This document shows positions 27,202 through 45,344 of a stretch of 64,000 nt of DNA, piece by piece. Origin of the DNA: Stenotrophomonas maltophilia (GTDB lineage: Bacteria > Pseudomonadota > Gammaproteobacteria > Xanthomonadales > Xanthomonadaceae); contig NZ_RXLZ01000008.1 in NCBI RefSeq assembly GCF_003970865.1, positions 1 through 64,000 on the forward strand, read 5' to 3'. The notes beneath the pieces are model-generated. The model was given only the letters and a program-made list of their open reading frames with translations. It was not told the origin of the DNA and did not search any database. Both the position numbers and the translations under genes were made by a program. Positions within the stretch are counted from its first letter, which is position 1. Every line of letters starts with the position of its first letter.

Positions 27202-27286
<85 letters not shown>

Positions 27287-27491: not shown

Positions 27492-27578
27492 GCCCAGGTG
27501 GCGGAATTGGTAGACGCACTAGCTTCAGGTGCTAGCGGGGGCAACTTCGTGGAGGTTCGAGTCCTCTCCTGGGCACCA
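27492..27578 (+). tRNA. tRNA-Leu (CAG), copy 2
   Basis: 87-nt class II tRNA, anticodon loop TTCAGGT within stem CTAGC/GCTAG, encoded CCA at 27576-27578. Identical over its length to copy 3 at 29457. Confidence 0.95.
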
Positions 27579-29456: not shown

Positions 29457-29543
29457 GCCCAGGTGGCGGAATTGGTAGACGCACTAGCTTCAGGTGCTAG
29501 CGGGGGCAACTTCGTGGAGGTTCGAGTCCTCTCCTGGGCACCA
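29457..29543 (+). tRNA. tRNA-Leu (CAG), copy 3
   Basis: 87 nt, same sequence as copy 2, anticodon CAG, encoded CCA at 29541-29543. Confidence 0.95.
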
Positions 29544-43412: not shown

Positions 43413-45104
43413 TTAGGCCAGCGCCTGCTCGTGCACGCCGGCGATCGCGCGGCCCGAGGGGTCTGCAGCCGCAGCGAAGCTGGCGTCCCAGGCAATGGCC
43501 GCCGGCGACGAACAGGCGATCGACTTGCCGCCTGGCACGGTCTCGGCAGCCGCGCGGCTCGGGAAGAACTGCTCGAACAGGTGGCGGTAGTAGTACGCCT
43601 CCTTGGTCTGCGGCGGGTTGTGCGGGAAACGCTTGTCGGCCGCCGCCAGTACACGGTCGCTCACCTGCGCCTCGGCATGCGCCTTCAGCCCGTCGATCCA
43701 GCCGTAGCCGACGCCATCGCTGAACTGTTCCTTCTGCCGCCACAGGATGCTGTCCGGCAGGTAGCCGTCGAACGCCTCGCGCAACACCGCCTTCTCGATG
43801 CGGCGGCCGCCAAAGCCGGCACCGACCATCTTGTGCGCGGCGTCGAAGCGCATCGCCACATCAAGAAACTCACGATCGAGGAACGGCACGCGCGGCTCCA
43901 CGCCCCAGGCCATCATCGACTTGTTGGCACGCAGGCAGTCGTAGTTGTGCAGCGCGTCGAGCTTGCGCACCAGCTCGTCGTGGAATTCGCGCGCATCCGG
44001 CGCCTTGTGGAAGTACAGGTAGCCACCGAAGATCTCGTCGCTGCCCTCGCCGGAAAGCACCATCTTCACGCCCATCGCCTTGATCCGTCGTGCCAGCAGG
44101 AACATCGGCGTCGATGCACGGATGGTGGTGACGTCGTAGGTCTCGATGTGGCGGATCACTTCCGGCAGCGCATCGAGGCCTTCCTCGAAGGTGTATTCGA
44201 AGCCGTGATGCACGGTACCCAGCGCTTCGGCGGCGATCGCAGCGGCGGCCAGATCAGGCGAGCCCTTCAAGCCGATCGCGAACGAGTGCAGGCGCGGCCA
44301 CCAGGCTTCGGTCTGCCCCCCATCCTCGATGCGGCGACGTGCGTAGCGCGCAGCCACCGCCGCCACCAGCGACGAGTCCAGGCCACCGGACAGCAGCACG
44401 CCGTACGGCACATCACTCATCAGCTGGCGTTCCACCGCATGCTCGAAGGCCTGGCGCAGTTCGGCCAGATCCGCCTGGCGGCCCTGCACGTCGGCATAGT
44501 CGCGCCACGGTTGCTGGTAGTAGCGCACCAGCTCACCACGGGCACTGTCGAAGTAGTGTCCCGGCGGGAACTGCGCGACGTCGGCACAGGTATCGACCAG
44601 CGCCTTCATTTCCGAGGCCACGCGCAGGCGCCCCTGGGCATCGTGGCCCCAGTACAGCGGCACCACGCCGACCGGGTCGCGCGCCACCAGCACGCGTCCA
44701 CTGTCACGGTCCCACAGCGCGAAGGCGAAGATGCCGTTGAGCTGCTCCAGCCACTGCGCCGGCGAGCCGCCCTGGCGGTACAGCGCGTTGATCACCTCGC
44801 AATCCGAGCCGGTCTGGAAGTCATAGGCGGTGGTCAGCGCCGCCTTCAATGCCTGATGGTTGTAGATCTCGCCGTTCACTGCCAGCGCCAGCTGGCCATC
44901 GGCCGACAGCAGCGGCTGCGAACCGCCGGCCGGATCGACGATGGCCAGCCGTTCGTGGACCAGCAGCGCACCTTCGTCGATGTACACGCCGCTCCAGTCG
45001 GGGCCACGGTGGCGCTGGCGTTGCGACAGTTCCAGCGCATGGCGGCGCAGGGAAGGAAGATCGTCACCGGCCTGCAGGCCGAAGATTCCGAAGATCGAAC
45101 ACAT
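43413..45104 (-). CDS. asnB: Asparagine synthetase B (glutamine-hydrolysing)
   Basis: 563-residue enzyme making asparagine from aspartate, ATP and glutamine. The N-terminal class II glutaminase begins MCSIFGIFG, with Cys2 as nucleophile after Met removal, and has RHRGPDWSG and LVHERLAIVDPAGGSQPL; the C-terminal synthetase has the ATP pyrophosphatase loop VLLSGGLDSSLVAA and SGEGSDEIFGGY. GGAG lies eight bases before the ATG at 45104. An Asn-rich leader peptide gene and terminator lie immediately upstream on the same strand, and a 29-bp palindrome follows. Upstream context strongly suggests attenuation by asparaginyl-tRNA supply. Confidence 0.95.
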   Translation of the reverse strand: MCSIFGIFGLQAGDDLPSLRRHALELSQRQRHRGPDWSGVYIDEGALLVHERLAIVDPAGGSQPLLSADGQLALAVNGEIYNHQALKAALTTAYDFQTGSDCEVINALYRQGGSPAQWLEQLNGIFAFALWDRDSGRVLVARDPVGVVPLYWGHDAQGRLRVASEMKALVDTCADVAQFPPGHYFDSARGELVRYYQQPWRDYADVQGRQADLAELRQAFEHAVERQLMSDVPYGVLLSGGLDSSLVAAVAARYARRRIEDGGQTEAWWPRLHSFAIGLKGSPDLAAAAIAAEALGTVHHGFEYTFEEGLDALPEVIRHIETYDVTTIRASTPMFLLARRIKAMGVKMVLSGEGSDEIFGGYLYFHKAPDAREFHDELVRKLDALHNYDCLRANKSMMAWGVEPRVPFLDREFLDVAMRFDAAHKMVGAGFGGRRIEKAVLREAFDGYLPDSILWRQKEQFSDGVGYGWIDGLKAHAEAQVSDRVLAAADKRFPHNPPQTKEAYYYRHLFEQFFPSRAAAETVPGGKSIACSSPAAIAWDASFAAAADPSGRAIAGVHEQALA

Positions 45105-45186: not shown

Positions 45187-45274
45187 AAAAAAACCCGCAT
45201 CGGCTGATGCGGGTTTTCTGGTGTCCGGGCGTGTGTTGCTGTCTATCTACCCAGGGCGCAGTCCCGCATCGGCC
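45187..45274 (-). promoter_or_regulatory. Candidate asnB transcription attenuator
   Basis: In the asnB-sense RNA the order is: GCCGATGCGGG inside the leader gene (45273 to 45263), then terminator arm AAAACCCGCATC (45217 to 45206), loop AGCC, arm GATGCGGGTTTT (45201 to 45190) and a run of U. The leader copy of GATGCGGG can pair perfectly with CCCGCATC and would then exclude the terminator. This is the textbook layout of a ribosome-controlled attenuator. Confidence 0.8.
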
Positions 45275-45344
45275 GCGCACGATTATTCGCGCGCAGATTA
45301 TTGCGGTTGTTGTTATTGACGGCGGTGGCCAGGCGGATCGACAT
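45243..45344 (-). CDS. Asn-rich leader peptide of asnB
   Basis: Short gene of 33 codons, ATG at 45344 and TAG at 45243, reading MSIRLATAV then NNNNRNNLRANN and a basic end. Eight of twelve consecutive codons (10-21) specify asparagine (AAT and AAC). It ends 26 bases before an intrinsic terminator that precedes asnB. A G-rich GGGGTAGGG stretch lies roughly 10 bases upstream as a weak ribosome-binding site. Leader peptides rich in the end-product amino acid control his, trp, leu and thr operons; asparagine-rich ones for asnB are not something I know as standard. Translation is inferred, not shown. Confidence 0.75.
   Translation of the reverse strand: MSIRLATAVNNNNRNNLRANNRARPMRDCALGR

Follow-up and report, generated by a model that had tools for sequence, protein, structure and literature searches.

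The logic of ribosome-mediated attenuation governs the his, trp, leu, thr, ilv and phe operons. The proteobacterial leaders of this kind share with the asnB element described here a run of regulatory codons, a terminator, a competing antiterminator and a biosynthetic gene behind them; the asnB element is unlike them in its Asn codons, in its predicted leaderless start and in the location of the antiterminator strand, which falls within the last leader codons. The 2004 work of Vitreschak et al. on proteobacterial attenuators is not known to contain an Asn case. In some Firmicutes, asparagine genes are controlled by T-box riboswitches, which resemble the proposed asnB element in linking the charging of a tRNA to termination ahead of amino acid genes, but bind uncharged tRNA directly and have no leader peptide.

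Excerpts of PMC3766115 and PMC3223726 list His, Leu, Thr, Trp, Ile/Val and Phe as leader peptide specificities, Asn not being among those listed. A term search in the available parts of these two papers and of PMC2965389, PMC4833913, PMC1262725 and PMC9413887 gave no Asn attenuator, and none was found by a full-text search of openly accessible articles; this agrees with the first-pass annotation of this DNA, according to which an Asn-rich leader of asnB may be undescribed. In Xanthomonas, the sRNA sX13 leaves an asnB gene unchanged, according to PMC3771888. There are precedents for a leaderless leader gene: in PMC7298713, the S. meliloti rnTrpL RNA begins with the ATG of trpL. This leader gene resembles the predicted asnB leader in being the leaderless gene of a ribosome-dependent attenuator, and differs from it in reading Trp, in belonging to another proteobacterial class and in having an RNA and a peptide which act in trans, while the start of the asnB leader is a prediction.

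We describe here a candidate cis-acting element, very probably a ribosome-mediated transcription attenuator by which asnB senses Asn-tRNA; the support for it is computational throughout. The window, i.e. the whole 64,000-nucleotide stretch of Stenotrophomonas maltophilia DNA that was analysed, carries the locus on its minus strand, between positions 43413 and 45380. The asnB gene (45104-43413) codes for a glutamine-hydrolysing asparagine synthetase of 563 aa, with the Pfam domains Asn_synthase and GATase_7, and its product scores 866.8 bits with NCBIfam PRK09431, asparagine synthase B, whose cut-off is 499. Between asnB and a divergent plus-strand gene lies, on the asnB strand, a 33-codon leader gene (45344-45243) encoding MSIRLATAVNNNNRNNLRANNRARPMRDCALGR; its translation bears out the Asn-rich frame seen at first pass, with 8 Asn within 12 codons (3 AAC and 5 AAT, 45317-45282), and Asn-rich leaders are also found in relatives.

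Past the leader gene, the same strand contains a terminator hairpin followed by a T-run, AAAACCCGCATC-agcc-GATGCGGGTTTT (45217-45187), the arms of which were located by alignment and folding. The 5' arm AAAACCCGCATC, common to terminator and antiterminator, spans 45217-45206, and the 3' arm GATGCGGG with the T-run spans 45201-45187. The folding energy is -18.4 kcal/mol, and none of 200 shuffles was as stable; a generic terminator scan did not list this hairpin, which was detected by folding. A terminator between leader and asnB had been proposed initially and stands, with one detail corrected: 82 bases, and not 83, separate the T-run from the asnB ATG (45104). The repetition of the 3' arm within the leader, part of the same proposal, was found again: the copy GCCGATGCGGG (45273-45263), just after the Asn codons, is the putative antiterminator strand, and the second occurrence of GATGCGGG in it (45270-45263) gives the expected 8-bp pairing with the terminator 5' arm, none of 200 shuffles of the leader stretch binding equally well. 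A predicted leader promoter is composed of a -35-like TTGCGC (45380-45375) and, after a 17-nt spacer, a -10-like TAGGGT (45357-45352), 7 nt ahead of the leader ATG.

About 100 nt downstream of asnB, a sodium/hydrogen exchanger gene (PF00999, 41923-43311, minus strand) could share the attenuated transcript. Elsewhere in the window, three tRNA matches are found on the plus strand (27202-27283, 27492-27575 and 29457-29540); two of them, with equal scores and 2 kb apart, are possibly a duplicated tRNA.

According to the proposed mechanism, RNA polymerase would start at or beside the leader ATG, and a ribosome would load at the 5' end of the RNA without a Shine-Dalgarno (SD) sequence, as the letters ahead of the gene suggest. 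With Asn-tRNA scarce, the ribosome would stall on the Asn codons, leaving the downstream leader copy free to pair with the emerging terminator 5' arm before the 3' arm is made, and transcription would read through into asnB. With Asn-tRNA ample, the ribosome would run over the copy toward the stop and keep it from pairing, so that the terminator would form and transcription would end upstream of asnB.

The Asn-rich frame is a rare object. Among the 953 ORFs of at least 8 aa in the window, one only, the leader frame, has at least 5 Asn in 12 codons. Within the 4.79-Mb genome, AAYAAYAAYNNNAAYAAY is found twice, one copy being that of the asnB leader, and AAYx4 gives five matches at four places; on reading, the three places other than the asnB leader showed no leader-plus-terminator arrangement. 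No further Asn leader was thus found in this genome at AAY-run places, a scan which other layouts would escape. A mechanical ORF listing is by itself no proof of a gene, and an A-rich stretch could happen to be open beside an ordinary terminator; the uniqueness of the frame in the window, its recurrence in relatives and the covariation reported below speak against such a coincidence, which is already contradicted by conservation and has a practically negligible probability.

The distribution of the leader was examined by scanning the named genomes with the AsnB protein and analysing the best 80 loci, a leader being defined as an ORF of 8-60 aa with its stop 60-300 nt upstream of asnB. Among the loci of these best 80 with at least 73% identity, 65 out of 69 have at least 3 Asn in 12 codons and 62 out of 69 at least 4; the misses are L039, L042, L072 and L044, the last with 60 nt of upstream sequence only. 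At the 11 loci of the best 80 with 68% identity or less, no Asn-rich leader was found. Reading of a set from additional genomes (L117-L146) recognized a leader-like ORF with at least 3 Asn in 28 out of 30; two same-family relatives, L126 (by the ORF rule) and L132, fail the leader test. Conservation in relatives of both the Asn codons and the repeated arm, proposed as a check at first pass, was indeed observed.

An Asn-rich leader is also present in all nine loci L155-L163 of family f12, which is, judged by its leaders, the Rhodanobacteraceae of the named set. A further 52 asnB upstream regions, sampled across families, were scored for at least 4 Asn. Such leaders occur in 9 out of 11 regions of f12 (L187 has 3 Asn and L188 shows no gene start), in all three of f2, in one out of 12 divergent asnB regions of the own family (64-70% identity) and in one out of 10 of f7; none was found in the 13 regions of f9 or in the three of f4, f5 and f10. 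The f7 locus, L208, is a distant lone case within the order, with a leader, MFAIYNTINTTNNRLLRSAGSF, a terminator and an arm copy, the other nine f7 loci being without. From these counts, the element tracks a single AsnB lineage (Xanthomonadaceae, f2 and f12); asnB genes of other lineages mostly lack it.

In 149 genomes of the family, several of which had fed the model, the covariance model R1 of the element found 41 matches with an E-value of at most 4e-22. Of these best matches, 40 lie directly upstream of asnB and the remaining one (G030:C147) is at a contig end. Such a distribution points to a role in cis. It bears on the alternative that the leader works mainly in trans, through its RNA or its peptide, like S. 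meliloti rnTrpL and peTrpL, with asnB as only one of its targets: termination would yield a small leaderless mRNA comparable to rnTrpL (PMC7298713), yet, given where the matches fall, a mainly trans-acting leader appears very improbable.

Upstream of the leader ATG, a fixed layout recurs, formed by TTGC, a -10-like hexamer separated from the -35 hexamer by 17-18 nt, then 6-7 nt and the ATG. TTGC at 35-37 nt before an in-frame start, combined with T at -7/-8, was found for 120 out of 136 distinct leaders, against 21 out of 3539 other ATG or GTG codons; a stricter version of the signature selects 91 of the 136 leaders and 29 of 1781 other ATGs. The -10-like hexamer, TAGGGT in the window, reads TACGGT, TAGCGT or TCTAGT in relatives. 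Conversely, SD-like letters precede 125 out of 141 asnB starts, but only 20 out of 120 leader starts. In the window, AGGG (45356-45353) was considered as a leader SD and rejected, being part of the -10-like hexamer at fixed spacing. A generic promoter scan reported no site, the hexamers departing from the E. coli consensus. The conserved promoter-like signature 6-7 nt before the ATG indicates that the leader gene is probably leaderless, with a predicted transcription start at or beside the ATG; the start is less sure in Lysobacter, since the CAGGAT form found there resembles an SD.

The hairpin, its T-rich tail and the leader could be parsed together in 91 out of 101 loci, 82 of which are distinct. 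Pairing and covariation were evaluated in three clade alignments, A1, A2 and A3, in which 98.1%, 99.6% and 96.0% of terminator cells, respectively, are paired, while 3, 3 and 2 terminator pairs have changed on both sides. This bears on a reading in which the leader ORF acts on asnB through translation, by reinitiation or mRNA stability, the hairpin being an mRNA-end or stability structure. The SD-like sequence found at most asnB starts provides the gene with a ribosome site of its own, which the leader could affect; moreover, the hairpin is without a clear T-run in L057, L059 and L166, and none was found by the scan in L143 and L145, where the leader is present. However, control through translation leaves the arm copy in the leader with no role, and hairpin, tail and leader do occur together in most loci: we regard it as improbable.

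The pairing required by the attenuator is conserved as well. Antiterminator cells are paired in 92.2% (A1), 94.5% (A2) and 89.3% (A3) of cases, against at most 59% in slid controls. For A1 and A2 this is not clearly above letter shuffles, 25 and 174 out of 500 of which, respectively, reach the same pairing, because the sequence hardly varies; for A3, none of 500 shuffles does. The most telling change is found in 5 of the 16 Lysobacter-type loci of A3, where G to A in the leader and C to U in the arm turn an antiterminator G-C pair into A-U; in the terminator, which is thereby weakened, that arm base now forms a U-G pair. The terminator alone offers no reason for such a compensatory change. The covarying stems that the first-pass annotation had suggested looking for are present, in the terminator of all three clades and at one antiterminator pair of A3.

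At the level of single loci, the duplex between leader and arm beats dinucleotide shuffles at the 1% level in 49 out of 82 loci and at the 5% level in 57, while in part of Lysobacter it does not outdo them. The native arm is not the single best partner, 23% of foreign arms on average binding better. The duplex starts inside the leader codons in all 82 loci, and in two of these (L036 and L052) it extends beyond the stop. Overall, the element has the run of product codons in a short ORF and the terminator between leader and gene that are typical of attenuators, along with an antiterminator recognized by its complementarity, its position and its folding in the state that precedes 3' arm synthesis, a feature which is weak in some Lysobacter.

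Folding was compared for different positions of ribosome and polymerase. If the terminator is complete and a ribosome sits on the Asn codons, at equilibrium the terminator wins in 54 out of 82 loci, the window included, and 28 switch. Equilibrium folding was accordingly rejected as proof of switching, and switching, if real, must be kinetic. When the 3' arm is not yet made, the antiterminator has a probability above 0.5 in 74 out of 82 loci, with a value of 1.0 in the window; the values near 0 of L031 and L037 say little, as the duplex finder took a shifted pairing. The spacing between Asn codons and copy is workable: assuming 12 nt from the first base of the A-site codon to the ribosome front, 80 out of 82 distinct loci have at least 3 Asn codons at which a stalled ribosome leaves the arm copy free.

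As to the opposite state, the antiterminator value of 0 with the ribosome at the stop is obtained by construction, the RNA upstream of the ribosome front being omitted. With an assumed upstream footprint of 18 nt, the 3' edge of the leader copy falls within the footprint in 77 out of 82 loci and the whole duplex in 42. The original idea that a ribosome at the stop codon covers the copy fits, by this measure, loci whose copy ends near the stop, and the window only marginally: the GATGCGGG copy of this strain occupies the stretch 25 to 18 nt ahead of the leader stop, and a ribosome parked at that codon hardly covers it. In this strain, either blocking would take place while the ribosome moves, or it would be steric, or control may be leakier in the clade.

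The asnB element differs from the four-segment type of trp and his, since no general protector hairpin was found in the A1 and A2 alignments. A candidate with an Asn-Asn loop in A1, which looks suggestive for part of the Xanthomonadaceae, is 80.2% paired and shows some covariation, none of 500 shuffles reaching its covariation score; it is not claimed, because 9-11 of the 31 rows are unpaired at four of its seven pairs. The A2 candidate, 48.0% paired, is unsupported. With no ribosome and the 3' arm not yet made, the antiterminator forms in 68 out of 82 loci; taken together with the missing protector, this predicts read-through when translation does not occur.

The leader Asn codons of the 82 loci comprise 252 AAT and 248 AAC, against 81 AAT and 625 AAC in the asnB genes of the same loci, a comparison drawn from related rows, so that its p-value is not fair. 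Such balanced usage would be expected if the decoding of Asn, perhaps its slowness, is under selection. A real attenuator might respond instead to a general slowing of the ribosome, or to arrest by the nascent peptide, the leader C-terminus being conserved within clades (RARPMR, ASLPRAGD), as that of arrest peptides can be. The conserved C-terminal codons, however, are the arm copy itself, and the number and order of Asn vary, with both codons in use, as for codon sensing; signals of this sort are accordingly quite improbable, and Asn-tRNA is the preferred one.

Physiology is consistent with this choice. AsnRS was found above cut-off in 32 out of 33 genomes, the own genome among them, and GatB and AsnA in none of the 33, the own genome included, both searches being positive in control genomes. 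The Asn of Asn-tRNA would hence come from the free amino acid and would not be synthesized on the tRNA, a setting in which control of AsnB by Asn-tRNA makes sense.

Two further proteins of the asparagine synthase family are encoded in the own genome, L002 and L003 (G000:C97 and C98, 647 and 733 aa). Both score over the cut-off of TIGR01536; they also resemble XrtA/PEP-CTERM amidotransferases, with scores under the cut-off of that family. In L003, the likely start MSGVVG is not followed by the usual Cys. In 14 out of 297 family genomes (G037, G039, G047, G054, G069, G076, G108, G128, G182, G193, G198, G224, G236 and G268) no match was found for AsnB, nor for asnA or gatB, and AsnRS is above cut-off in 13 of them. 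They are candidates for asparagine auxotrophy, provided that no divergent AsnB escaped detection; two of the genomes are only 81% complete.

No Rfam family matches the asnB element at its threshold: the T-box gives no match at the gathering score or at E up to 1, Thr_leader reaches 22.8 bits against a gathering score of 55, with the terminator part only, and Leu_leader 20.0 against 50. A leader of the same layout is found in the own genome, upstream of ilvC (G000:C172:2219 and on; L233, local 720-1117 and on). It encodes MLHHNTPPRTHIEAADTGAASLRSILVLVLITQPTGAGRASV, with an Ile/Leu/Val run, and has an arm copy, GGTGCGGG, in its last codons and a terminator about 25 nt after the stop; the gene behind it is identified as ketol-acid reductoisomerase with 515.8 bits. 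Codons and gene are different from those of the asnB element, and the Asn model scores 34.7 bits on it, against 132.3. The ilvC leader has no Rfam match at threshold, and its ATG may also lie close behind a promoter. Weak matches of the Asn model, similar to the ilvC leader, occur in G098:C8 (L234) and G063:C22 (L236).

Given this leader in the same genome, the Asn element appears to apply a design already in use in these bacteria to a new specificity: its mechanism is of a known class, with a new amino acid, probably a leaderless start and no general protector. A wider proposal, in which we place somewhat less than even confidence, is that of an Asn-specific class, old in Xanthomonadaceae and Rhodanobacteraceae, leaderless and devoid of a protector, in which the ribosome at the 5' end would be obligatory for termination and loss of translation would open asnB, the reverse of trp and his; the terminated leader transcript, some 160 nt long, may in addition work in trans like rnTrpL, as a leaderless mRNA or small RNA.

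If the attenuator reading is true, asparagine becomes one of the few amino acids that are sensed through a leader peptide. With a predicted leaderless start and no general protector, the element would represent attenuation in a minimal form; what it does when translation is absent is directly testable, and the asnB leader would serve as a reporter of Asn-tRNA charging. The element would also provide a control of asparagine synthesis in a large lineage, which includes opportunistic and plant pathogens.
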